A DNA stretch of 54,596 nt. It comes from Roseburia sp. Lineage in GTDB: Bacteria; Bacillota; Clostridia; Lachnospirales; Lachnospiraceae. Location: the NCBI GenBank assembly GCA_023662875.1, contig JAMPIG010000002.1, positions 1 to 54,596 of the forward strand, written 5' to 3'. The notes beneath the pieces are model-generated. The model was not told the DNA's origin and did not search any database. It saw only the letters and a program-made list of their open reading frames with translations. The position numbers and the translations under genes were made by a program. Shown here in pieces: positions 2,123 through 19,038 of the stretch (within the stretch, counting starts at the first letter, position 1; every line of letters begins with the position of its first letter).

Positions 2123-4495
2123 ATGGTACGTTGTTCGCTGGAGCCTTACGAAGGTAAGGAAAAATACATTTTCATCAGCTATGCCCACAAAGACAATGAC
2201 CGTGTGTATCCGATCATTGAAAAACTCGCCGGGATGGGCTATCGGATCTGGTATGACGAGGGGATAGATCCCGGCTCGGAATGGCCGGAAACCATTGCGG
2301 AGCATTTGAACAACTGCGAGGTGTGCATCGCTTTTTTGTCGGAGAATTATCTTAATTCTCATAATTGTCGGAGGGAAATTAATTTCGCCCTGAGAAAAAA
2401 GAAGTCCTTTATTACGATTGTTCTCGAGCCGGTGGAGCTGTCGCTGGGGATGGAGATGCAGCTGTCAGCCACGCAGTCCGTTTCAAAATACACGTTTCCC
2501 GACGACGAGGCGTTTTATGCAAAGGTCTGCACGGCGAAGTTTTTGAGCGTGTGTATGGCGCAGCCCGGGGAGAGGGCGGAGGAAAGTCGTGGGCTGTCAG
2601 GAGAGGAAGCGAAGTCCGCGGAGAAGGAATCGGAGAGAGGCGGACAGAATTCTGAGCCGACGGTCGAGGAAGAGCAGGCTTCAGAAAGGGAACCGAAAAA
2701 AACCGAAGAGAGCTTTGAGGCATCCGGAGCGGAACCCAAAGAAGCGGCAAAGGAGACGCAGGGGACAGAAGTAAAAGATGACACATCTGTCACACTCTCC
2801 AAAAGGCTCTCCCCGCCAAATTTCGTCAAAAAGAAAAGAACCGAAAACTCGACGAAAAATAAAAAGCAGGATACGCAGGAAGGAAACAGCAAAAAGAAAA
2901 AGATGCTGCTGATGGCGGGAGGCGCGGCGCTGTTGGTTCTCCTTATTATTGTCGTTTCCGCCGTATCGGGAGGAGGAAAAGTGACAGTAGCCGGGAAGGA
3001 GATCAAACGTTCAGAGACCAGCGTGACATTTTCCGATGTGACGATTACAGAGGAAGATGTTCGGAATCTGGCGTCCTTGGAGGAGCTGTACTCTTTAAGC
3101 TTTAGAAGATGCCGTTTTGAGGAAGGCGCGGCGGATCAGCTGGGTTCTCTTTCTCCTGCGTTGACGGATCTGGGGTTTACCGAATGCACGGGAATAAAGA
3201 ACTACGGCGGGCTTTCGGAGTTGAAGACCCTTACATTTCTGGAGATACAGAGCTGCGGTCTTACTGACCAGGAGTTGGGCGATGTCACCTTCAGCGATGA
3301 GATAGCGCAAATAACCTTGGACGGAAACGCAGAGCTGTCGGATCTTACTCCTTTAAAAACGGCATCCGCATTGTGGCGTTTGCAGGTGAACAATACTTCC
3401 GTCACAGACTTTACGGCTTTGTCGTCCTGTACCGCTCTTCGGACGTTATCGGCGGACGGCTGCGGGATTCGGGATCTTTCTTCCCTGAAGGGTCAGGGAA
3501 TCAGTTATTTAAGCCTTGCAGATAACGAGATTGAGAGCCTGTCTCCGCTTGCCGGAAATGAAACGATCCGTAATCTGTTTCTGAGCGGAAATCGTATTGA
3601 GGATATTTCGCCGCTTGCGGGCATGACGCAGCTTACGGTTCTTGAGCTGAATGATAACGCGGTTGCAAGCCTTGCTCCCCTGTCGGGCTGCGCGAAGCTG
3701 AGCACTGTGCGGGTGAGCCGGAACTGCCTGACCAGCCTGAACGGGCTGGAGCAGGCGCTGGAGTTAAAGAGGATTGAGGCGGCGGGAAACGAGATTACGG
3801 AGATCGACGGCCTGCAGAATTGTACGATTTTGACGCATGTCGATTTGACGGACAATGAGATTTCAGACATTTCAATTCTTGCAAAGAGCGCGGCGACGCT
3901 GGAGCAGGTGTATCTGGGCGGCAATCAGCTTGACCGCATTGACGCCCTGAAGGGAACCGCGGCGTTAACGAACCTGAATCTGGACGGGAACAGGATTGTT
4001 TCCCTGGAGTCTTTGGCGGATTCCATCGAGTTATACGGGCTGTCCGCCGAGCATAACCTGATTACCTCTACGGACGGTCTGGAAAACGCGGTTCAGCTTC
4101 GGTATCTGTATCTGGCGCACAACCGGATTGAAGATGTGGAAGCGCTGGAAGCCCTGACGGCAAAAGCGGAGGACTCTTATTATGTATTAGATATAAGCAA
4201 CAATGCCATTTCTTCCCTGCAGCTCGGAGGAAGCATAAATTACAATCGGCTGGCAGTGTACGGAAATCCGCTGACGTCGCTGGATTTCCTCCGGGAAATA
4301 AAAGGAACGCGTCTGTACTTTACCTATCTTGACGAAGCGGGAACGGAGGGCTTTGGCGATACATTTACCTGGTTCGGAATCCTGGACTGCCCGGCGGACA
4401 AGCAGGTTGCGACAAAAAATAATATTCGGGGAACCGTTAATTTTCTAACAGAGGAGGAAGCCGAGGCGGATATCGCACAGGCAGGGACGCGCTGA
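2123..4495 (+). CDS. TIR domain - transmembrane - leucine-rich repeat receptor-like protein
   Basis: Three parts are visible. Residues about 12-130 form a TIR domain: it starts IFISYAHKDND, has a BB-loop-like DEGIDPGSEW, and the helix SENYLNSHNCRREI keeps the Glu at the position used by NAD-cleaving TIR domains. Residues 150-258 are a charged, low-complexity linker rich in Glu and Lys. One membrane helix (about 259-281, LLVLLIIVVSAV) follows a Lys-rich stretch, so the TIR side should be cytoplasmic. Residues about 300-730 are some twelve internalin-like leucine-rich repeats of 20-24 residues (pattern LxxLxLxxNxIxxI) that should lie outside. This is Toll-like receptor content in reversed order. 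The function is unknown; a self- or wall-sensing NADase is one possibility. The 3' end merges with a 37-bp tandem repeat. Confidence 0.85.
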   Translation: MVRCSLEPYEGKEKYIFISYAHKDNDRVYPIIEKLAGMGYRIWYDEGIDPGSEWPETIAEHLNNCEVCIAFLSENYLNSHNCRREINFALRKKKSFITIVLEPVELSLGMEMQLSATQSVSKYTFPDDEAFYAKVCTAKFLSVCMAQPGERAEESRGLSGEEAKSAEKESERGGQNSEPTVEEEQASEREPKKTEESFEASGAEPKEAAKETQGTEVKDDTSVTLSKRLSPPNFVKKKRTENSTKNKKQDTQEGNSKKKKMLLMAGGAALLVLLIIVVSAVSGGGKVTVAGKEIKRSETSVTFSDVTITEEDVRNLASLEELYSLSFRRCRFEEGAADQLGSLSPALTDLGFTECTGIKNYGGLSELKTLTFLEIQSCGLTDQELGDVTFSDEIAQITLDGNAELSDLTPLKTASALWRLQVNNTSVTDFTALSSCTALRTLSADGCGIRDLSSLKGQGISYLSLADNEIESLSPLAGNETIRNLFLSGNRIEDISPLAGMTQLTVLELNDNAVASLAPLSGCAKLSTVRVSRNCLTSLNGLEQALELKRIEAAGNEITEIDGLQNCTILTHVDLTDNEISDISILAKSAATLEQVYLGGNQLDRIDALKGTAALTNLNLDGNRIVSLESLADSIELYGLSAEHNLITSTDGLENAVQLRYLYLAHNRIEDVEALEALTAKAEDSYYVLDISNNAISSLQLGGSINYNRLAVYGNPLTSLDFLREIKGTRLYFTYLDEAGTEGFGDTFTWFGILDCPADKQVATKNNIRGTVNFLTEEEAEADIAQAGTR

Positions 4496-4582
4496 TCGCG
4501 GGGCGGATATCGCACAGGCAGGGGCGCGCTGATCGCGGGGCGGATATCGCGCAGGCAGGGACGCGCTGATAACGGGGGCGGA
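4465..4582. repeat. 37-bp tandem repeat spanning a stop codon
   Basis: About three copies of a GC-rich unit beginning GGCGGATATCGC start at 4465, 4502 and 4539, with a partial fourth near 4577. The first copy encodes the last residues and the TGA stop (4493-4495) of the TIR-LRR gene; the others lie downstream. The copies are almost identical, which suggests recent expansion. Confidence 0.9.
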
Positions 4583-4643: not shown

Positions 4644-7328
4644 TCAGCGCTTTCCGCGAAGAATTCTCTCCAGCCGCTCTCCCAGGCGGCTCAGGATCTC
4701 GTTGCTGATCGTATCACAGCGCAGGGCGAGTTCTCCTGCGGTAATTTCTTCTTCGTCGGAGCGGCCGATGAGGACGGCAATGTCTCCTTGGGCAATTCTG
4801 GGAATCCCGCTGACGTCCGCCAGGGTCTGATCCATACAGACGCGTCCCAGAATCGGGGCGCTATATCCGTTGATCAGGACGCGCCCGTTTCCGCGGGAAA
4901 GGCTTCTGGGCAGTCCGTCTCCGTAGCCGATAGAGAGAACGGCTACCTTCATCCTCCGGTCGGCGGTAAAGGTAATTCCATAGCCTGCGGATTCGCCGGG
5001 CTGTAATGTACGGACAGAGGCGACACGGGCATACAGGGAGAGCACAGGCCGGAGGGCGGGAACGCAGCGGGAATCCTCATCCGTGCTCAGCAGGCCGTAC
5101 AGGGCAATGCCCGGCCTGACGTAGTCCGCCGCCACGTCAGGGTAGTTGATGATTCCGTAGCTGGAGAGAAGATGAAGTCCGCTGCAGGAGCAGCCCGCCT
5201 CTTCCAGGGAATCGACCGTCTGATAAAAAGCGTCGATCTGGCTCTCGGTAAAAGCGCGGCAGGGAGGCTCGGAGGAGTCGCAGGCCGCGAGATGGGTAAA
5301 GATTCCGTCCACAACAAGATTCTGCATCCGGTATACGGAAAGAATATCCCTCCAGTCTTCACAGCGGATCCCCAAGCGGTGCATACCCGTATCTACAGCG
5401 ATATGGACGTGGAGCCTTTGACCAAAGGACTGCAGCCGCTTTGCATAATCGAAATCCAGTACCGTCTGGGTAAGGCGATAGCGGTTGAGAAGAGGAAACT
5501 GCGAGGGGTGGGTATAGCCCAGGATCAAAATCTGACCGCTGATACCGGCCTCCCGCAGTTCGATTCCCTCCGACAGACTGGCCACGCAGAAGTCGTGTAC
5601 GCCGAGACGGTTCAGCTCTTCGGCGATCAGCCGGGCACCATGGCCGTAGGCGTTGGCCTTTACCGTCGGCATCAGGCGGCAGCCCTCGGGGAGCAGCGAC
5701 TGCAGATAGCGGACATTTTGCGCCAGCGCTTCCCGATCCAGTTCAATCCAGGCCCGCTCCGTACCCGGGAGAGTTTTTGTCTCGCGGAGCATCCCGTCGA
5801 AGGTTCCGGCATCTGTCAAAGAGTTCTCCGTCCCATCGAAATTTCTGGCATCCATCAAGGAACTTTCTGTTCCGTCGAAAGCCTCGGCATCTGTCGGAGA
5901 GAAACGGCTCCCGCTAACCGCCGTCCCAAAATCCGAGCCATTCTTCGGCGAAAGCATATCTTTGCTTGAAGACAGGGAATCGAGCTTCCTTGAGCTTCGT
6001 CTAAGCGTTCGGCGCAATACGCTTCCCAGCCAGGTAAGGAACAGTCCGGCTCCAACGGACAGGATTGAGACGGCCAGATAATGAATCAGGCTGTTGTCGA
6101 TCAGAAGCTCCGTAAGCCGCAGCAGCTTTGCAACGCCGCGCACGACGACGATAAAAGCGGGATGCAGGACATAAATCCAGGCGGAGACGGTGCGCAGAGA
6201 CCTCCGGGAGGCGGCGGGAACGGCAAGCAGGCAGTGGTAAAGGAAAAATGACACAGGTATCAGAAAGAAATACATGCTGTCATGCCTCCGTATTTCAAAA
6301 TGGCGCAGCAGAAAAGCCTCCGCCGTCATGGCGCAGAAGGAGAGAGCCAGGAGGGCAGCGAGGAGCGGAAGTCTGGGTTCCTTTTTGGCGGTATCTGTCT
6401 TGCTTTGGATGGTGAGACGCAGGGCTTTTGCCCGCCTCGGTTTACAGGCTGCTACCGGGTTTTCGAGATTCTTATGCGGGGTTACGGAATGCCTGGCGCT
6501 TTCCGGGCTGCCGGAGGGTTGGCGCGCTCTGCCGGAGGATTGGTATGTCCCGCCGGGGAGTTTTCCCGCGAAAATCCCCAATATCAAAAACGCGGGCGCA
6601 AGAAACAGACCGTTTCTCGTATAGGAGAAAATCCGGAACATGCCTTCATACGCAGCGTTCAGAAAAGGAACCCTTTGAACCAGGCCGAAGTAGCTGTCGC
6701 CGAACAGCCCGACCAGATAGAGCAGGCCGGAGAGCACAGCCGCTGCCCGCAGCGTCAGGAAGCGGCTCATCAGCAGTAAGAGCAGCACGCCCAGGGTACA
6801 GGCAGGGAAGTACCAGAGATGGTAAAAGGTTCCGTCGAAAAACAGCATCCGGAGAGCTCCGGAAAAGGTCAGCCCCTTATAGTGCCCGGCATAGATCCCC
6901 AGAGGGAGATAGAGGACAATGGAGCCTGCGTAAAGGAGACTGATTCGCAGGAGATATTTTTTTATTCTATGAGGAAATTTTATCGTGACCGAAGCGTCCG
7001 CAGGATGCTTTTTGATCTTATGGGAAACTACGTCATGGCTGGGGGAGAGTGCTTCGCATTCTTCTAAGCGTCCAACAGGACGCTTTTTACCCTTGGTGAC
7101 ATGCATGTCATATTCTTGCGGGTTCTCCGAAAAGAGTCCGGACAGCATAAAATGGCCCGTCACCATAAAGAAAAAGGGGACGGCGACTCTTGCCAGAACC
7201 CGGGTAAAAAAGAAATCCGCGCCGTCGCTGAAGGAGGCGAGGGGAGAAGTATGGATTGCGACGACCAGAAGCGCCGCGGCAAGGCGGAAGCCGTCGAGTC
7301 CGCCGTAGGTTTTTCTTTGTGTCTGCAT
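4644..7328 (-). CDS. vanT: VanT-type membrane serine/alanine racemase
   Basis: Supplies D-Ser (and D-Ala) for modified peptidoglycan precursors. The N-terminal half is an acyltransferase-3-like membrane domain (starts GLDGFRLAAALLVVAIHTSP; about ten hydrophobic segments). From about residue 525 there is a fold-type III PLP alanine racemase. The PLP lysine is in TVKANAYGHG (about residue 557) and the catalytic Tyr region is ESAGYGITFTA (about 782). This fusion is the hallmark of VanT. At 894 aa it is longer than the roughly 700 aa usual for VanT. Charged, low-complexity insertions occur after the second membrane segment and near residues 260-330, and a linker at about 475-515 holds three 13-residue repeats (FDGTESSL type). 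The start is ATG 7328 with a modest AAAGG upstream. It is last in the cluster, 186 bp after the D,D-peptidase. Confidence 0.9.
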   Translation of the reverse strand: MQTQRKTYGGLDGFRLAAALLVVAIHTSPLASFSDGADFFFTRVLARVAVPFFFMVTGHFMLSGLFSENPQEYDMHVTKGKKRPVGRLEECEALSPSHDVVSHKIKKHPADASVTIKFPHRIKKYLLRISLLYAGSIVLYLPLGIYAGHYKGLTFSGALRMLFFDGTFYHLWYFPACTLGVLLLLLMSRFLTLRAAAVLSGLLYLVGLFGDSYFGLVQRVPFLNAAYEGMFRIFSYTRNGLFLAPAFLILGIFAGKLPGGTYQSSGRARQPSGSPESARHSVTPHKNLENPVAACKPRRAKALRLTIQSKTDTAKKEPRLPLLAALLALSFCAMTAEAFLLRHFEIRRHDSMYFFLIPVSFFLYHCLLAVPAASRRSLRTVSAWIYVLHPAFIVVVRGVAKLLRLTELLIDNSLIHYLAVSILSVGAGLFLTWLGSVLRRTLRRSSRKLDSLSSSKDMLSPKNGSDFGTAVSGSRFSPTDAEAFDGTESSLMDARNFDGTENSLTDAGTFDGMLRETKTLPGTERAWIELDREALAQNVRYLQSLLPEGCRLMPTVKANAYGHGARLIAEELNRLGVHDFCVASLSEGIELREAGISGQILILGYTHPSQFPLLNRYRLTQTVLDFDYAKRLQSFGQRLHVHIAVDTGMHRLGIRCEDWRDILSVYRMQNLVVDGIFTHLAACDSSEPPCRAFTESQIDAFYQTVDSLEEAGCSCSGLHLLSSYGIINYPDVAADYVRPGIALYGLLSTDEDSRCVPALRPVLSLYARVASVRTLQPGESAGYGITFTADRRMKVAVLSIGYGDGLPRSLSRGNGRVLINGYSAPILGRVCMDQTLADVSGIPRIAQGDIAVLIGRSDEEEITAGELALRCDTISNEILSRLGERLERILRGKR
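5790..5890 (-). repeat. 39-bp in-frame tandem repeat in the racemase linker
   Basis: Three copies with a 39-bp period (CGTCGA marks at 5795, 5834 and 5873 on the plus strand) encode 13-residue units FDGTE/NSL-DA. They lie between the membrane domain and the racemase domain, where extra sequence is tolerated. Confidence 0.8.
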
Positions 7329-7514
7329 GAATCTTTGTACCTTTCTTTGTTATGTTTTGTCGGAGGCGTTCGCTTGCCGAATTTCCACGGAGCCGGTTTC
7401 CTTTCGTAAGACAGAGGCGTCGGTTCCCTTATTCCATCAAAACCACGCCGCAACCCAAGCGCCACAAAGGAATGTCTGCCTATTCTGCAGGAAACTTTAC
7501 TGCAGTAAAGCCAT
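7329..7514. other. Spacer between D,D-peptidase and racemase genes
   Basis: No gene is seen in these 186 bases. A perfect 16-bp palindrome CTTTACTGCAGTAAAG lies at 7495-7510, just past the peptidase stop codon. No T-run follows, so it is not a clear terminator. Confidence 0.5.
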
Positions 7515-8096
7515 TTACTGGCTCCACTCCGCCAATATAAACCCGTCCACATTGTTGCCGGAGAGGGTATAAGGGTGGGCCGCGGGGATTTCCATTACGG
7601 TTTGTTCCCCGTCGCATTTCCGCCAGGAAACCGCGATCCGCCGTTGCCCGGTCTGATAGCGCAGCGGGTGGCTGTAAGGATACCGACGGATGAACGCGAT
7701 GTATTCCTCCAGGGTCAGACCGTTCTCCGCCATAATCCCGGCATGAGGGACGCCCACATATCGGAAATGCCATGGTTCGTGGCTGATGCCGGTAATACTC
7801 TCCTTCCCGGCAGGATAGCGTAGAATAAAGCCGTATTTTGCCGCTTTTTCCCGGAACAGCCGACAGACGCCGGAGTCGGGAAAGGCAGGGCGAATAAAGT
7901 CGATCTGGTCGCTCTTCAGGCCAAGATCGATGGCCAGGCCGGTATGATGCTCACTGTGTCCCGGCTGGGCAACATATTTTCTCGTAAATTCCGGCCCGTT
8001 ATCCCGGAGGGAGTCGTCCCAGATCCGCTGCTGCTCGGCCAGGGAGCGCCATCCGCTGACCGGGACGATATCGTTCCAGCCATGAATCTCCAGCAT
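7515..8096 (-). CDS. vanXY: VanXY-type D,D-peptidase, catalytic part downstream of an in-frame TAG
   Basis: Zinc D,D-dipeptidase/carboxypeptidase that would remove D-Ala-D-Ala and terminal D-Ala so that D-Ser-ended precursors prevail. The open frame from ATG 8096 (193 aa) holds the whole metallopeptidase core: VPVSGWRSLAEQ, the zinc-binding SEHHTGLAIDLG, and EPWHFRYVG with catalytic Glu and third zinc-ligand His. The same frame continues upstream to a TTG at 8264 and encodes the normal N-terminal segment of VanXY, but a TAG at 8102-8100 (codon 55) interrupts it. GGAG six bases before ATG 8096 could allow re-initiation, so a catalytic fragment may still be made. The known VanXY-G enzyme is about 254 aa; the restored frame here is 249. 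Confidence 0.8.
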   Translation of the reverse strand: MLEIHGWNDIVPVSGWRSLAEQQRIWDDSLRDNGPEFTRKYVAQPGHSEHHTGLAIDLGLKSDQIDFIRPAFPDSGVCRLFREKAAKYGFILRYPAGKESITGISHEPWHFRYVGVPHAGIMAENGLTLEEYIAFIRRYPYSHPLRYQTGQRRIAVSWRKCDGEQTVMEIPAAHPYTLSGNNVDGFILAEWSQ

Positions 8097-8099
8097 CAG

Positions 8100-8264
8100 C
8101 TACTCCAGCAGGGTGACGGCCCGGCGCTGCAGCAGGATATCCGGGGCGGATTCCAGGACGGGAATTCGGAAGTCGTCCGTATTTTCAAAAAACCGATATT
8201 GACCGTTTACCAGGATCAGGCTTCCCGTGTGAACCTGCTCCCGCTTTAAAATAATTCTGTGCAA
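8100..8264 (-). pseudogene. vanXY: N-terminal fragment of vanXY ended by an amber codon
   Basis: From TTG 8264, with GGGAGG six bases upstream, the frame reads LHRIILKREQVHTGSLILVN and continues to AVTLLE before TAG. This matches the start of VanXY-G-type enzymes in length and spacing (including a G-LLLVN-like stretch), and the frame is shared with the downstream catalytic part. Replacing TAG by CAG (Gln) would restore a continuous reading frame, so one C-to-T transition explains the break. A sequencing error is also possible. Confidence 0.75.
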
Positions 8265-8345
8265 CGTAAGCCTCCCGCCTGCTTAGCAGACTCTGTGAAC
8301 CGCTTTTTTGTCCCGCCATCCCTTGCCCGCGACACGAGTCTGCCC

Positions 8346-9401
8346 TCAACGCATCGCTGATTCAAGAATCCTCGTCAGAACCTCCCGGAAGGGGATTCCG
8401 GCGGCCTTCATCATGCCGGGGTAGCGGCTGTGCTCCGTAAAGCCGGGAATCGTGTTGACCTCGTTGAAGATGATGCGGCCCTCCGGCGTCAGAAAGAGAT
8501 CTACCCGGGCAAAGCCGCTGCAGTCCAGGACGCGGTAGATCTGCTTTGCCGTCTCCTTGATCTCGGCAGCCTTTGCGGGGGAAATTCTGGCGGGGACGTG
8601 GATCGCTGAGGTCTTCAAGGTATATTTTTCCGTGAAGTCAAAGAAGCCTCCCGACAGCTCGATCTCGTCTACCTCGCCTGTAATCAGCTCAGTACTGCCC
8701 AGGACGGCGCAGCCGACCTCGAAGCCCTCGACCGCCTCCTCCAGAATGACCCGGCTGTCATAGCGCAGGGCCAGGCGGACGGCCGCCTCCAGCTCGCTCA
8801 CGCTGCCTACCCGGGAGACGCCGTAGGAGGATCCGGACTTTACCGGCTTAGCAAAAATGGGAAAGCCCATATCCCGGGCGAAAAGCTGCGCCCGGGAGAG
8901 CATATCGTCCATGTCCGAAAGCCGCGCGTCCAGGGCGAGAGACCTTGGTACGGCGACGCCGGCGGCTTCTACCAGCCGGTGGGCTCGATCCTTATCCATA
9001 CAGAGGGCGGAGGAAAGGGTTCCGCAGCCCGCAAGAGGGATGCCCGCCAGCTCGATCAGTCCCTGGAGAGTGCCGTCCTCCCCGTTTCTTCCGTGCAGAA
9101 CCGGCAGCGCAGCGTCGATGGAAATTCTTTCGACCCCGCTGTCCCGCAATACCAGCAGGCAGCCTTCCCCGCGGTTGGGGGAGAGAACGGCGGGAACGCA
9201 GTCCTCCAGGTTCCGCCAGCTGTTATCCAAAAGCTTTTCCGGTGAGCCGGTATAGTAAAACCACTGTCCTTCCTCGGTAATTCCGACCGCCACGGGCTGA
9301 TATCTGGTTTTATCCAGATGCATGAGTACCCCGGCCGCGGAGGAAAGAGACACGCTGTATTCGGAGGAGCAGCCCCCGAAGAAAATCAAAATATTTTTCA
9401 A
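8346..9401 (-). CDS. vanG: VanG-like D-alanine-D-serine ligase
   Basis: ATP-grasp ligase joining D-Ala to a second D-residue, here most likely D-Ser. The 351 aa follow the Ddl/Van family: an N-terminal FFGGCSSEYSVSL, then PVLHGRNGEDGTLQGLIELAG, the ATP-binding KPVKSGSSYG, and the metal-binding FNEVNTIPGFTEHSRYP. The omega-loop region reads FFDFTEKYTLKTSA, the form I associate with VanG/VanC/VanE D-Ser ligases rather than D-Lac ligases or housekeeping Ddl. The start is TTG 9401 with GGGAGG seven bases upstream. It leads the structural genes and is followed 81 bp later by the D,D-peptidase. The D-Ser assignment is inference from this loop and from the neighbouring racemase. Confidence 0.9.
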   Translation of the reverse strand: MKNILIFFGGCSSEYSVSLSSAAGVLMHLDKTRYQPVAVGITEEGQWFYYTGSPEKLLDNSWRNLEDCVPAVLSPNRGEGCLLVLRDSGVERISIDAALPVLHGRNGEDGTLQGLIELAGIPLAGCGTLSSALCMDKDRAHRLVEAAGVAVPRSLALDARLSDMDDMLSRAQLFARDMGFPIFAKPVKSGSSYGVSRVGSVSELEAAVRLALRYDSRVILEEAVEGFEVGCAVLGSTELITGEVDEIELSGGFFDFTEKYTLKTSAIHVPARISPAKAAEIKETAKQIYRVLDCSGFARVDLFLTPEGRIIFNEVNTIPGFTEHSRYPGMMKAAGIPFREVLTRILESAMR

Positions 9402-9500
9402 GTTGATACCTCCCTATATGAAAGACGTTTTCGGACAGTCTGCTTTACGAGCCTTTGCCATAAAGGTTGCGTTGAAAACATGCGCTGCAGAGGGCATCTG

Positions 9501-9545
9501 AAAAACGCCCTGTCCGACAGCTAAAGCATATCAGAACAGGGCGTT
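9501..9545 (-). terminator. Probable intrinsic terminator between vanS and the ligase gene
   Basis: Perfect 10-bp arms AACGCCCTGT (9504-9513) and ACAGGGCGTT (9536-9545) are followed on the minus strand by TTTTTC. It would end vanRS transcription, or act as an attenuator in a leader if the ligase promoter lies upstream of it. Confidence 0.65.
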
Positions 9546-9579
9546 CGATCTATTCAGGTTTTCTGTTGGAATGCATAAG

Positions 9580-9612
9580 AAATCCTAAGGAAAATCCTAC
9601 GAATTTCTTACG
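9580..9612 (-). promoter_or_regulatory. Candidate VanR binding site: three 11-bp direct repeats
   Basis: Read on the minus strand, CGTAAGAAATT, CGTAGGATTTT and CCTTAGGATTT follow one another with an 11-bp period. They overlap the last codons and stop of vanS, upstream of the ligase gene. OmpR-family regulators typically bind such tandem half-sites. A related pair lies near vanR at 11645-11666. Confidence 0.45.
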
Positions 9613-10859
9613 GGAAGAGATACGGTAAAGAGGATGCTTTCGTTTTCACTGTCCGCGGTAATCGTGCCGCCGTGCAGCTCGACGATCTCCTTCGCGATAG
9701 CCAACCCCAGGCCCGCGCCGCCGGTGGAGGAGGAGCGGGAGGAATCCAGCCGGAAGAACTGCTCGAAGATTCGATCCAGCTTGTCCGGCGGGATAGTTTT
9801 TCCGCGGTTGCTGACGGCGATTAAAACGCTGTCCTTTTCGTCGCTGCCCCCGGACATGCTCCGGGCGGGACGCATGGTCAGGCGGATTTTCGTCTGGGGG
9901 TAGCTGTAATTGACCGCGTTCCGGATCAGGTTGTCGAATACCCGCTCCAGCTTGTCCGGGTCGCAGAGAAGCTCCACTCCGGGCGTAATATCCGTCTTCC
10001 AGGCCAGATCCTTTTCCGCCAGCACAGGCAGGAATTCGCTGACGATCTGTTCCAGCATCCGGCTTAAGCTTACGCGCTCTGGCTCTAAAGTAAGAGTCGT
10101 CAGGTTAAAGCGTGTGATATCGAAAAACTCATTGATCAGATCCTCCAGCCGGAGGGCCTTTTCCAGGGCGACGCCGGTATAATGCGCCCGCAGCTCGGGC
10201 GAGATCTCCGGCTCGTCCCGCAGGAGAGAGAGATAACCGATGACGCTGGTGAGGGGCGTTTTCAGGTCGTGAGCCAGATAGATAATCAGGTCATTCTTGC
10301 GCTGCTCCGCCTCCTTCGCCAGCAGGGCGTTGCGAAGGGCCCGCTCCCGTACAAGGTTCAGACTGTCCTGTACCTCCCGCAGATCCGGCGAAAGGCTGAT
10401 GGGAACATCCGCCGGTGTGGAAAGCAGCTCCGCCGCCTCGATCAGTTCATCCAGATAACGCAAAGGCTTGCCGATAAAAAAGCGGGTCAGAAAAATCCAG
10501 CCCAGCACGCCGAAGAGAAACGGCCAGATCATAAGAGTTTCCCGGACGACCTGGGCGAACGCGAAAATCAGACTGCTTTCGTCGTGTGTGATCTTCCGGT
10601 AGACGTGGTATCCGTTGAACGCCAGGGTGATAAGAAGACAGCATATAACGATGTAGGCGATTATGGAAAAAGCGTATTGGAGCAGAATCTGTCTTCTGGC
10701 GCGTCTGCCGTAGCTGCTGAGAGGACTCCTGTCCGACAAAAGCTGCAGGAGCCGCGGCTTTGTCTTCGGCAAGTCGATATTTTCGGAGGTTTTTCGCAGG
10801 GAAAGCTTCCGGTGCGCGGCCCCTGTGTTTGTTTTTTCGGTTTCCTGTAATTTATTCAA
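9597..10859 (-). CDS. vanS: VanS-type sensor histidine kinase
   Basis: Membrane sensor kinase partnered with the VanR regulator. Two hydrophobic helices (about residues 65-85 and 115-135) flank a short outside loop of roughly 30 residues. The dimerisation/phospho-acceptor helix reads YLAHDLKTPLTSVIGYLSLL. The ATP-binding N-box (VFDNLIRNAVNYS) and the G-boxes (GLGLAIAKEIVELHGG) are intact. The 420-aa length and the short sensor loop fit VanS proteins of the B/G type. The start overlaps the end of vanR by 8 bp, so translation is coupled. It is followed by a terminator-like hairpin. Its ligand (drug or wall damage) cannot be read from sequence. Confidence 0.88.
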   Translation of the reverse strand: MNKLQETEKTNTGAAHRKLSLRKTSENIDLPKTKPRLLQLLSDRSPLSSYGRRARRQILLQYAFSIIAYIVICCLLITLAFNGYHVYRKITHDESSLIFAFAQVVRETLMIWPFLFGVLGWIFLTRFFIGKPLRYLDELIEAAELLSTPADVPISLSPDLREVQDSLNLVRERALRNALLAKEAEQRKNDLIIYLAHDLKTPLTSVIGYLSLLRDEPEISPELRAHYTGVALEKALRLEDLINEFFDITRFNLTTLTLEPERVSLSRMLEQIVSEFLPVLAEKDLAWKTDITPGVELLCDPDKLERVFDNLIRNAVNYSYPQTKIRLTMRPARSMSGGSDEKDSVLIAVSNRGKTIPPDKLDRIFEQFFRLDSSRSSSTGGAGLGLAIAKEIVELHGGTITADSENESILFTVSLPVRNS

Positions 10860-11541
10860 TGGTGTATCCCACCCCCCAGACGGTTTTTACATATTTCGGC
10901 TTCCGCGCCGGTTCCTGCATCTTTTCCCGGAGTCTCGCGATATGGGTCATGACGGTGTTGTTGCTGTCTAAGTAGGCCTCGCCCCAGATTGCGGCGAACA
11001 GCTCCTCGGAGGAAACCACCTTGCCCCTGTGCTCGCAGAGATACCAGAGGATATTGAACTCGATGGGCGTCAGGGTCAGCTCCCGCTCATTCAGAAAACA
11101 TTTATGGCTGTCCCTGCAGATTTGCAGCCCTCGGATTGAGATTTCGTCCGTGGCGGGGGCCTCGCTCACATTATAGCGGGTGTAGCGCCGCAGCTGCGTC
11201 TTTACCCGCGCTACCAGCTCCAGGGGATTGAAGGGCTTGGTCACATAATCGTCGGCACCCAGGGTCAGACCGGTAATCTTGTCCGTATCCTCGACCTTGG
11301 CGCTGAGCATGACGATCGGGAACAGATGCTTTTCCCGAATCCGGCGGCATAAGGTAAAGCCGTCCATATCCGGCAGCATGATATCGATAACCGCCAGAGC
11401 CATCTCCTCCTTCTCCAGGCAGGAGAGAGCCTCCGTCGCGTTGTAAAATTTATAGACCTCGTAGCCCTCGTTCCGCAGATAGACCTCGACCAGATCCGCG
11501 ATGGACGCCTCGTCGTCCACAACCAATATATTTTTGTTCAT
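10852..11541 (-). CDS. vanR: VanR-type OmpR-family response regulator
   Basis: A 229-aa transcription activator with a receiver domain (acidic DDE at 9-11, phospho-acceptor Asp53 in VIDIMLPDMDG, Lys in VTKPFNPLE) and a C-terminal winged helix (LTPIEFNILWYLCEHRGKVV, ending VWGVGYTIE). It heads the vanRS pair and should drive the ligase, peptidase and racemase genes. The ATG is at 11541. A candidate promoter with tandem operator repeats lies about 60-120 bp upstream. The order R, S, ligase, XY, T matches vanG-type clusters but lacks vanU, vanW and vanY. Confidence 0.9.
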   Translation of the reverse strand: MNKNILVVDDEASIADLVEVYLRNEGYEVYKFYNATEALSCLEKEEMALAVIDIMLPDMDGFTLCRRIREKHLFPIVMLSAKVEDTDKITGLTLGADDYVTKPFNPLELVARVKTQLRRYTRYNVSEAPATDEISIRGLQICRDSHKCFLNERELTLTPIEFNILWYLCEHRGKVVSSEELFAAIWGEAYLDSNNTVMTHIARLREKMQEPARKPKYVKTVWGVGYTIE

Positions 11542-16859: not shown

Positions 16860-17013
16860 ATTGCGCTCTCTGCGAGGTTATCTATCGCTAATTTCCAAGA
16901 ACTCTGAAAATCAGAGAGGAGGCTCTGCATACTTGCAATTTTGACGAAATTATGGTACATATAAGGGGTAGTACCGCGTTGAAAATTTGTCAAACAGAGG
17001 GGAGCAGAAAGCG

Positions 17014-19038
17014 ATGGGGCTGAATGAAGCACAAAAGAAGGAGCGTTCCGAATATCTGGAGAAGTATCTGGAAATTACGGAGTGTTCGCAAAGAAAACCT
17101 TACGTTTTTATCAGCTATGCCAGTGATAATTGGGAAACCGTGTTTAAGACCGCCGTTGTGCCGATGCAGAGGCAATACGGGCTGCGTGTATATGCGGACA
17201 AAGCGTTCGATAAAGTGAACGATAAGTGGATTGTGCCGATGCTGAGGAATATCCGGGGCGCGGATGTGGTGGTCGCTTTTGTCAGTCAGAGCTATATCGA
17301 GAGCTACGCCTGCTTTCTGGAGCTTCTGACCGCAGTCAACAATAGAAAGCAGGTAGTATTCGTCTCCCTTGAGGAGAATCTGCATCTGGGAGATACGACG
17401 GATCAGCCGAATGTGGAGCGGGGCGTGAAGAAGGAAATTCTCAACCAGGGTGCAAATATCGCTACTAATACCAACAATACCTCGAACGATATCATGCGCG
17501 CGATGAAGTCGGCGTATACGAGCCTTTCAACCCTGTTAGAGCAGGACGCGCTCTCAAAGTATGATATTTCGGACGCGTTTATCAATTTCTTTCGGGATGC
17601 CGCCATAAATCGAAAGACCATAAATGATCTGAATGCGGTAAAGGGTACGATATCTTATGTCAGCGGGAGGGTCTTCGACCCGGCTATGGCAGAGGAAGGA
17701 AGGCGGCCGACTCCTGCGGAGGAGGTCAAGGCGGCAGGGCAGCCGCAGCCTGTACCGACTCTTGCGGAGGAGGAAAAGGAGGAGGAGAAAGCCGCGCCGG
17801 TACATCAGTTGTTCGCGCAGGCTTCTGCGGAGGAGGAAAAAGCCGCGCCGGTGTATCAGTCGTCCGCGACGGCTCCTGCGGCGGAGGAAAAAGTTGCGCT
17901 GGTACATCAGTCGTCCGCGCAGGCTCCGATGGAAGGAAAAGCCGCGCCGGTGTATCAGCTGTCCGCGCAGGCTTCTGCGGAGGCGATAAAAGCCGCGCCG
18001 GTACATCAGCCGTCCGCGCAGGCTCCGACGGAAGGAAAAGCCGCGCCGGTATATCAGTCGTCCGCGACGGCTCCGGCAGCAGGGATAGATATTGCGTCGG
18101 CCCACCGACAGGCGGAGCAGCCTGCGGAGGCCGCTGCAAGTACAACTTCCGAGCAGACGGCGCAGCCTTCCGCGCCTCAGGCGGATACAGCATCCGCAGG
18201 CTCGGCGGGCGTCGCCGGAAGCGTTAAAGCGCCGGACGGGAAGAAGAAAAAGGGGATTATTGCCGGAGCCATCGGAGCCGTAGCCTTGTTGGCGTTGATT
18301 TTGATTCTGGTCGGAGTAAATTCACCAAAAAAAGTGACGGACATGGCTTGCACAGCCTACGACGGATACGCGGCAACCTATACCGGCGAATGGAAGGACG
18401 ACCAGCCCAACGGTCAGGGCGTTATGACATGGGATAACGGACTTGTTCACGAGGGAGAGTGGAAGGACGGTATTCCAAACGGATACGGCACCAGAAAATA
18501 TGCTGGCAGCGGTGTTTGGGAGGGAGAATGGAACGGCAATGAGCTTCATGGTTCGGCGAAGCTCGAATCCGGAGACATCTTTGAAGGAGATTGGAACTCG
18601 GCAGGGAGATTTGTTTACGGTAAGATCAGCTATGCGAACGGCTCTGTTTTTGACGGAGACTGGGACGAAGGGAACGGGAATTTTTCCAGGGGAACCGCTA
18701 TCTATCAAAACGGCGATAAATATGAGGGCGAGTGGGATGTGAATGCCGGATATTTCACCTATGGAACGATAACCTATGCAAACGGGGACGTTTACAAGGG
18801 ACAGTTTGCAAACGGATATCGCAATGGGCAGGGAACCATGACCTATGCGGACGGAAGCGTTTACGCAGGCGAATGGAAGGACGGTCTGGCAAACGGATAT
18901 GGAAGAAGAACGACTGCGGACGGCTCCTACTATGAAGGCGACTGGGTAAACGATAAGGCAGAGGGTCAGGGTACCCTTAGGTATGCGGACGGTACAGAGT
19001 ATACAGGTACATGGGTAGACGGAAACTTTGTAGAGTAG
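17014..19038 (+). CDS. TIR domain - transmembrane - MORN repeat protein
   Basis: Residues about 27-150 form a TIR domain: it begins PYVFISYASDNWE, and the helix SQSYIESYACFLELL keeps the Glu at the NADase position. Residues 225-360 are an Ala/Pro/Glu-rich linker with six 15-18-residue repeats (KAAPVHQ/KAAPVYQ). KKKK precedes one membrane helix (about 412-432, IGAVALLALILILVGV), which suggests N-inside topology. Residues about 452-672 are nine or ten MORN repeats (YxGEWKDGxxNGxG) that should lie outside. The ATG at 17014 has AGGGGAG upstream; an earlier TTG lacks this. It shares the plan of the TIR-LRR protein at 2.1-4.5 kb. Function unknown. Confidence 0.85.
   Translation: MGLNEAQKKERSEYLEKYLEITECSQRKPYVFISYASDNWETVFKTAVVPMQRQYGLRVYADKAFDKVNDKWIVPMLRNIRGADVVVAFVSQSYIESYACFLELLTAVNNRKQVVFVSLEENLHLGDTTDQPNVERGVKKEILNQGANIATNTNNTSNDIMRAMKSAYTSLSTLLEQDALSKYDISDAFINFFRDAAINRKTINDLNAVKGTISYVSGRVFDPAMAEEGRRPTPAEEVKAAGQPQPVPTLAEEEKEEEKAAPVHQLFAQASAEEEKAAPVYQSSATAPAAEEKVALVHQSSAQAPMEGKAAPVYQLSAQASAEAIKAAPVHQPSAQAPTEGKAAPVYQSSATAPAAGIDIASAHRQAEQPAEAAASTTSEQTAQPSAPQADTASAGSAGVAGSVKAPDGKKKKGIIAGAIGAVALLALILILVGVNSPKKVTDMACTAYDGYAATYTGEWKDDQPNGQGVMTWDNGLVHEGEWKDGIPNGYGTRKYAGSGVWEGEWNGNELHGSAKLESGDIFEGDWNSAGRFVYGKISYANGSVFDGDWDEGNGNFSRGTAIYQNGDKYEGEWDVNAGYFTYGTITYANGDVYKGQFANGYRNGQGTMTYADGSVYAGEWKDGLANGYGRRTTADGSYYEGDWVNDKAEGQGTLRYADGTEYTGTWVDGNFVE
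17790..18090 (+). repeat. Six-copy in-frame repeat in the TIR-MORN linker
   Basis: Degenerate 48-57-bp units each encode K-A-A-P-V-(H/Y)-Q-x-x-A-(Q/T)-A followed by a short acidic or glycine tail (one unit reads KVALV). This is a flexible, probably cytoplasmic spacer just before the membrane helix. Confidence 0.8.

Follow-up and report, generated by a model that had tools for sequence, protein, structure and literature searches.

Animal Toll-like receptors carry an N-terminal ectodomain of leucine-rich repeats (LRR), one membrane helix and a C-terminal TIR domain. The known bacterial TIR systems, as far as we are aware, sense phage inside the cell. In Thoeris, a TIR protein with a Glu at the catalytic position signals to a second protein through a messenger of the ADP-ribose (ADPR) type. 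Internalins of Listeria present LRR domains by means of a signal peptide and a wall anchor, and the PASTA Ser/Thr kinases of the PrkC/StkP type read the wall. For animal ryanodine receptors, a link to cyclic ADP-ribose (cADPR) as ligand has been discussed. Here we analyse a 54,596-nt stretch of Roseburia sp. DNA (Lachnospiraceae; assembly GCA_023662875.1, contig JAMPIG010000002.1, positions 1 to 54,596), hereafter the window, in which a gene at 2123..4495 (+ strand) encodes a TIR domain, a transmembrane (TM) helix and LRRs in a single chain. TIR genes of this family are associated, by neighbourhood and by co-occurrence, with genes for membrane proteins that have RCK-like and ryanodine receptor (RyR) domains. 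We consider the best explanation, with a probability of roughly 0.45, to be a single-pass TIR receptor that makes an ADPR-type messenger read by an RCK-RyR K+ channel.

The protein has the parts of a Toll-like receptor (TIR, one membrane helix, LRR ectodomain), but in the order TIR, helix, LRR, the reverse of the animal one; its 22-residue repeats are of the internalin type, and the Glu at the catalytic position is kept. A first-pass annotation, made from the sequence alone, had described it as a mirror of animal Toll receptors. The same parts in reverse order are indeed present, and the likeness is an analogy of parts. As in Thoeris, the TIR has the catalytic-position Glu, ThsB profile matches are weak, and an ADPR-type messenger to a second protein is proposed here; unlike in Thoeris, the TIR sits in a membrane-anchored receptor, and an RCK-RyR K+ channel is the candidate effector. 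Among the window genes scanned near the TIR gene (NUDIX, M48, VanT-like racemase, VanY, VanG-like ligase and two-component genes) there was no SIR2, SLOG or Macro match and no ThsA beside it, the rest of the genome not having been searched for ThsA. The LRRs share type and fold with those of Listeria internalins and Roco proteins, whereas the present protein has a TIR at its N-terminus and an internal helix in place of the signal peptide and wall anchor of internalins. With the PASTA kinases the protein shares the plan of a cytoplasmic enzyme, a single helix and an outer sensing domain, and a TIR-TM-PASTA relative exists; the enzyme is a kinase there and a TIR here.

An outward-LRR TIR receptor, if true, would provide the first clear example of Toll-type sensing at the bacterial surface known to us. 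Neither a bacterial TIR-TM-LRR receptor nor a RyR channel acting as TIR effector was the subject of any of the literature matches listed; subscription literature lay mostly outside the search, so that an earlier mention is possible. According to PMC7075850, the domain architectures within bacterial TIR groups are diverse; TIR-TM-LRR is not named in the portion available. The accessible part of a study of gut TIR NADases has no mention of transmembrane, leucine-rich or LRR (PMC9092222), and a RyR-TIR link was not found in the available parts of PMC7016017, PMC9503650 and PMC8195603. PMC13232231 was the only paper with both RyR and Thoeris among the ten matches listed in one search.

Architecture of the TIR-TM-LRR protein

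The gene, whose reading frame coordinates are exact, encodes 790 residues, and its TIR-TM-LRR architecture is confirmed and not due to chance. All its features lie on the + strand. Pfam places TIR_2 at aa 16-106 (2168..2440), with an E-value of 1.9e-22 and 80.5 bits against a curated cut-off of 28. A charged, disordered linker follows, K-rich at its end (aa 148-262, 2564..2908), as judged from the structure model, ortholog comparison and hydropathy. The sole hydrophobic segment found, with a mean hydropathy of 2.75, is the predicted membrane helix at aa 263-281 (2909..2965), which adjoins a KKKK stretch. The C-terminal half matches LRR_4 (7.4e-39) and LRR_8 (4.3e-16), and Pfam, the model and a motif scan place an internalin/Roco-like LRR domain at about aa 291-740 (2993..4342). 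From aa 286 onward 16 LRR motif matches were found, whereas 2000 shuffled sequences had 2.9 on average and never more than 10. Fourteen of the 16 are in register (aa 322-659) and their spacing would accommodate two degenerate units; the repeats, mostly 22 residues long, thus number about 15. The first-pass annotation had thus identified the TIR domain, the single helix with its Lys-rich flank and the repeats, and had undercounted the latter at about twelve.

Structure prediction of both domains, which that annotation had proposed as a check, gave a TIR fold and a continuous LRR solenoid. In the full-length AlphaFold2 model, built from 7 sequences, the mean confidence score (pLDDT) was 78.6; the LRR solenoid was mostly above 90, and linker and helix (aa 148-283) below 50. 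The first Foldseek matches of this model in the PDB were Roco LRR and internalin A. At the sequence level, the LRR matched the internalin A profile at 6e-29, far under the cut-off of that model.

A TIR-only model (101 sequences) reached a pLDDT of 93.6, and its first three Foldseek matches were TLR15, SARM1 and a SPARTA TIR. When a profile of the 101 TIRs was compared with PDB chains, Cat1 ranked best (1.5e-9), followed by TLR15, another bacterial TIR, TLR1 and MyD88. Lower-ranked matches included AbTIR (3.5e-5) and ThsB (0.003); TIR-1/SARM1 chains were also matched, as were the TIRs of TLR2, 6 and 10 besides those of TLR1 and TLR15. Residue E85 (codon at 2375..2377) occupies the position of a Glu in Cat1 and in the bacterial TIR chain 7uxr, which we take to be the catalytic residue of TIRs. 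It is identical in 108/108 rows of an alignment of the window TIR with 107 relatives, in keeping with the NADase-type Glu that had been claimed; F17, S19, Y20, W43 and D45 are identical in 107 of the 108. By sequence, the domain has the Glu expected at the catalytic position of a NADase or cyclase TIR, and would be predicted to turn over NAD+.

Constraint differs along the protein. Between the window and its ortholog in genome G052 (82% identity over the TIR-LRR protein), the TIR is 97% identical, with a ratio of non-synonymous to synonymous substitution rates (dN/dS) of 0.04, versus 88% and 0.29 for the LRR core. The linker is about 53% identical and its synonymous rate is high (1.2).

A 37-bp tandem repeat of 3.2 copies (4465-4582) starts within the last codons of the gene and extends beyond its stop. 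Scans around the gene returned 4 promoter-like sites, versus 1.3 expected, and 3 terminator-like sites, versus 3.0, none of them usefully placed.

Relatives, outer parts and topology

Searches with the TIR domain only (E<=1e-20, counts including the window's own genome) matched 17/397 genomes of the family, 9/391 of the class sample and 2/299 of the phylum sample. Of the 20 TIR matches in the family sample, 6 were full TIR-TM-LRR proteins, the window's included; L053 and L054 are two further, short ones, each with 3-4 LRR motif matches. Within the genus, the full protein matched 6 of 101 genomes at E<=1e-30, and a TIR-LRR protein was found in two, the window's and G052. GTDB contigs were then scanned with an alignment of seven TIR-LRR proteins, and the best 80 of 414 confirmed stretches were used. 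As the query itself contains LRRs, LRR-bearing members are over-represented in this list, and the shares given below are not frequencies in nature. The hosts of these 80 were mostly Clostridia-type draft genomes, many of them from animal gut; Coriobacteriaceae accounted for a few and Zoogloeaceae for one.

The pooled set comprised 116 TIR frames (E<=1e-12), or 107 without identical or contained ones. Helices and LRRs were called by simple rules, and five rows were cut by contig ends (L014, L080, L097, L100, L156). Forty of the 107 relatives had one helix and LRRs, 41 one helix and another C-terminal part, 22 no helix and three several helices; L073 was the sole case of LRRs without a helix. 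Altogether, 42 genomes, the window's among them, hold TIR-LRR proteins, with a helix in 41. Pfam, applied to 105 members (two L075 fragments were outside the tally), detected LRR_8 in 46, BspA-type LRR_5 in 10, FHA in 8, Sel1 in at least 5 and PASTA in at least one.

On a tree of the 107 TIRs, the LRR label changed at least 17 times, and at least 7 of these changes were forced by starred branches; 44 of 104 inner branches of this tree are weak, and the five cut rows were scored as having no LRR. After its ortholog, the closest tree relatives of the window TIR bear other C-terminal parts. By these sequence comparisons, the family retains the TIR and swaps the remainder (LRR, SEL1, PASTA; FHA without a helix). 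A fixed output joined to an exchangeable sensor would agree with the constraint on the TIR, the divergence of the LRR and the label changes.

The gene neighbourhood of the G052 ortholog was compared with that of the window. NUDIX and M48 genes lie upstream of the TIR-LRR gene in both (92.7% identity over 1.8 kb), which rules out that the ortholog stands in a wholly different place. In G052 a gene that looks RecQ-like by eye is interposed, and the downstream genes are unlike those of the window. Carriage of the gene by viruses was rejected, as a scan of viral contigs with the TIR-LRR protein found no relative.

Three further groups of relatives were noted. A contig labelled Pseudomonadota (a Zoogloeaceae metagenome-assembled genome) holds a TIR-TM-LRR gene (L162, 5644-7527), by transfer or by a binning error. 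Two adjacent TIR proteins in L045 (4404-5804 and 6058-7599, - strand) have tails that resemble BspA-type LRRs by eye and no helix, and are probably cytoplasmic. Two related TIR-TM proteins (L056, 4974-7457; L047, 5655-8249) have long outer parts that resemble SecDF-type repeats by eye.

The first-pass annotation had placed the repeats outside and the TIR inside, and three lines of evidence point the same way. Lys and Arg were counted in the 15 residues on each side of the helix in 81 single-helix relatives, the window protein not among them. They were commoner before than after the helix in 64 of the 81, equal in 12 and fewer in 5, with means of 4.65 before and 2.12 after. The helix was absent from all 8 relatives with a Pfam FHA domain, an intracellular domain that reads phosphopeptides, and exactly one was present in 40 of the 41 LRR-bearing relatives. 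Finally, L052 has PASTA, an outward-facing domain in known kinases, behind its single helix. The lack of a helix with FHA and its presence with LRR and PASTA support a TIR inside and repeats outside. The rule is imperfect, since SEL1 members (e.g. L049, L051, L057) and a MORN protein of the window also have a helix, and a TPR member (L133) has none. We infer an N-terminus and TIR in the cytoplasm and an LRR domain outside.

RCK-RyR genes and TIR genes

Clustering of the neighbours of 41 TIR-LRR loci revealed a recurrent membrane protein whose central part is Rossmann-like and whose C-terminus holds a RyR domain. Such an RCK-RyR neighbour (E<=1e-10) was found in 12 of 104 TIR loci, six of which are TIR-LRR loci (L084, L087, L104, L121, L126, L149), L087 being the weakest (3.5e-11). 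It is on the same strand as the TIR gene in L051, where it lies upstream, and in L104, L121, L126 and L149, with gaps of 45, 49, -55, 4 and 14 bp, respectively, for frames taken from stop to stop; in the remaining seven it is on the opposite strand. A second member with a TVGYGD-type K+ filter is present in L084, L122, L142 and L144. In G157 an RCK-RyR pair is directly followed by a TIR gene of a different type, propeller-like according to Pfam matches below threshold, and in G127 (RyR match 1.5e-66) a TIR gene lies 2 kb from the RCK-RyR gene.

The domain assignment was examined with Pfam and with PDB profiles. Among 15 members, RyR was detected in 6 at E<=1 (best 1e-7), Ion_trans_2 in 4 (best 1.3e-14) and Rossmann/TrkA_N weakly; the long members of L104, L126, L149 and L084 had, individually, no Pfam match at E<=0.01. 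The family profile matched PDB chains named as ryanodine receptors over about 30 residues, namely a ryanodine receptor 1 chimera (1.6e-11) and putative ryanodine receptor chains (3nrt, 5e-5), and also KcsA (6e-4) and MthK (0.01). The four members submitted to PADLOC had no match there. An EHxRW motif, followed by an H, was present in 30/30 members inspected (26 by pattern, 4 by eye), a count that excludes L207-L214, L220 and L221.

A May 2026 preprint (PMC13232231) shows that phage proteins with a RyR domain either bind or cleave 2'cADPR and 3'cADPR, both products of TIRs, and notes the likeness to the animal RyR domain. There, the RyDEP ligand residues are given as H75, W78, H100 and D117, cADPR being bound by H75, W78 and H100; D117 was outside our mapping. 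By sequence, the partner family thus carries a predicted RyR domain (PF02026) with the cADPR-binding H, W and H, and one member of the pair is a predicted K+ channel with a TVGYGD-type filter in an ion-channel domain. The phage proteins are evasion enzymes or sponges, according to that preprint (PMC13232231), whereas here RyR is fused to membrane and Rossmann-like parts in bacterial genomes. The window's genome (G000) itself holds an RCK-RyR pair as neighbouring genes of contig C119 (2367-3914 and 4152-6014), one member with a TAGYGD filter; no TIR was found on that contig.

Co-occurrence was counted with a strong match set at E<1e-100, a cut-off chosen after the matches had been seen, with a profile (A6) built from TIR neighbours and with Fisher tests that ignore shared ancestry, and these choices weigh against the P values that follow. 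In the family (397 genomes), strong RCK-RyR matches occurred in 5/17 TIR genomes versus 2/380 others (P 1.5e-6). Without the window's genome the proportion was 4/16 (P 2.6e-5), and without the linked G289 as well it was 3/15 (P 4e-4). For the TIR-LRR genomes, a strong match was found in 16 of 42 (13/39, plus G000, G314 and G337). When five genomes with adjacent genes were removed from the 39, 8/34 remained, versus 2/380 TIR-negative family genomes (P 4e-8) and versus 8/290 class genomes (P 5e-5). In the genus (76 genomes), strong matches were present in 2/5 TIR genomes versus 3/71 (P 0.032), or in 3/5 versus 3/71 (P 0.0027) if the broken gene of G004 is counted as strong. The two genes are on separate contigs in G000, G314, G337 and G328. 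Only two family genomes had a strong RCK-RyR match and not this TIR, namely G157, with its TIR of another type, and G306, with none beside. G011, G018, G020, G306, G538 and G703 are RyR-positive with this TIR subfamily unmatched, and all have other TIR_2 matches, a count for which there is no base rate for comparison. TIR and RCK-RyR genes are therefore associated by both neighbourhood and co-occurrence. This tilts the choice left by the first-pass annotation, NAD depletion or nucleotide signalling, to the latter.

Other neighbours were also considered. Six TIR-LRR loci have a neighbour from a cluster of EAL/GGDEF or LacI-like genes; the same gene is directly downstream only in L096 and L157, which are near-identical, and the domains differed in the four of the six loci scanned apart. 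A cyclic-di-GMP partner was accordingly rejected as a general one. ABC-transporter-like neighbours, mixed by eye, occur in six TIR-LRR loci. Lone RCK-RyR genes, with no K+-filter second member beside them, lie near lipoprotein-like or SecD/SecF-like genes (by eye) in L205, L207, L208, L209 and L212, and may be a housekeeping branch of the RyR family.

A candidate circuit, rival explanations and further genes

The circuit that we favour may be described as follows. The LRR domain of a single-pass receptor with its N-terminus inside would face outward and detect a cue at the surface. The cytoplasmic TIR, once clustered or released, would cleave NAD+ and produce an ADP-ribose type messenger (cADPR or a relative). 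This messenger, possibly together with a fall in NAD, would be read by the membrane proteins with a Rossmann (RCK/TrkA_N-like) part and a C-terminal RyR, of which one of each pair would be a K+ channel, and the outcome would be K+ flux, growth arrest or death. The parts with their conservation, the recurring architecture, the association with RCK-RyR genes and the pair in the window's own genome are observed, whereas topology, TIR catalysis, the messenger, RyR gating and the biological purpose are all inferred; our confidence rests on the family-level co-occurrence. The broader proposal, that Clostridia own a Toll-like circuit with single-pass receptors, interchangeable outer domains and TIR-made cADPR gating an RCK-RyR K+ channel, is put forward more tentatively. 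If true, it would be a bacterial counterpart of both the animal step from cADPR to the ryanodine receptor and LRR-to-TIR surface immunity, in one pathway. The RCK-RyR partners would allow a direct test of RyR domains as receptors for TIR-made cADPR.

Several observations weigh against this circuit. At E<=1e-20 the family contrast is modest (5/17 versus 32/380, P 0.014), as is that in the genus when all matches at this level are taken (3/5 versus 7/71, P 0.015), and a strong RCK-RyR match is present in 8/290 class-sample genomes other than the window's. RCK-RyR genes lack a TIR neighbour in five genus loci (G004, G011, G018, G020, G061), and in family f10 they are present in 6 genomes, again with no TIR found next to them; in the three loci listed they lie near genes resembling SecD/SecF by eye. 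The RyR family thus also exists independently of these TIRs. No RyR gene adjoins the TIR gene in the window or was found among the neighbouring genes scanned, and 26 of the 42 TIR-LRR genomes have no match at E<1e-100 (two of the 26 have a weak one; many are drafts). The last two findings, like the invariant E85, would suit a surface-triggered suicide NADase, in which clustered TIRs drain NAD+ and the RCK-RyR pair is not their partner. Such an enzyme would leave the tight same-strand adjacency in five loci, the co-occurrence on other contigs in four genomes and the presence of RyR genes beside two TIR types in need of another reason, and we regard it as unlikely. One feature of the TIR itself also counts against the circuit: where many TIRs (Cat1 and TLR15 among them) have a W ahead of the Cys in their Glu motif, this one has N81, and N is found in 104 of the 108 rows. 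This substitution could be accounted for if the protein were an adhesin or scaffold, its LRR binding a surface as internalins do, to which it is similar in fold and in sequence, and its TIR self-associating without catalysis. A mere anchor would hardly keep E85 in all 108 rows, nor would the TIR be so much more constrained than the LRR, its supposed working part; this possibility appears remote.

A different purpose for the same mechanism is also conceivable. The receptor might read the cell's own wall or turgor and tune K+ channels through the TIR product, as an envelope or osmotic sensor and not in defence. The PASTA version of the TIR-TM plan in L052 would fit such a role, a K+ channel output suits turgor control, and the upstream NUDIX and M48 genes kept in G052 make the gene look settled rather than mobile. 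The patchy presence (2/101 genus genomes) and the frequent swaps of the outer part are more like those of conflict or niche genes, and make this purpose doubtful.

The receptor gene is not the only one of its kind: TIR_2 is matched three times in this genome, and in all three proteins the TIR is followed by a single predicted helix. The second is a TIR-TM-MORN gene of the same general plan (16987..19038, + strand), about 12.5 kb downstream of the TIR-LRR gene, for which Pfam and hydropathy indicate TIR_2, a K-rich flank, one helix (aa 424-442) and MORN repeats. The third is a protein of 1096 aa on contig C113.

Directly downstream of the TIR-LRR gene, on the opposite strand, lies a vanG-type gene set (4644-11541, -). 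It includes a VanT-like racemase with an acyltransferase part, a D-Ala-D-Ser ligase (NCBIfam VanG, 519 bits, cut-off 495) and a VanXY/VanY-like peptidase below cut-off. The VanS-like kinase scored 383, below the cut-off of 400, and the VanR-like regulator 390, above the cut-off of 350.

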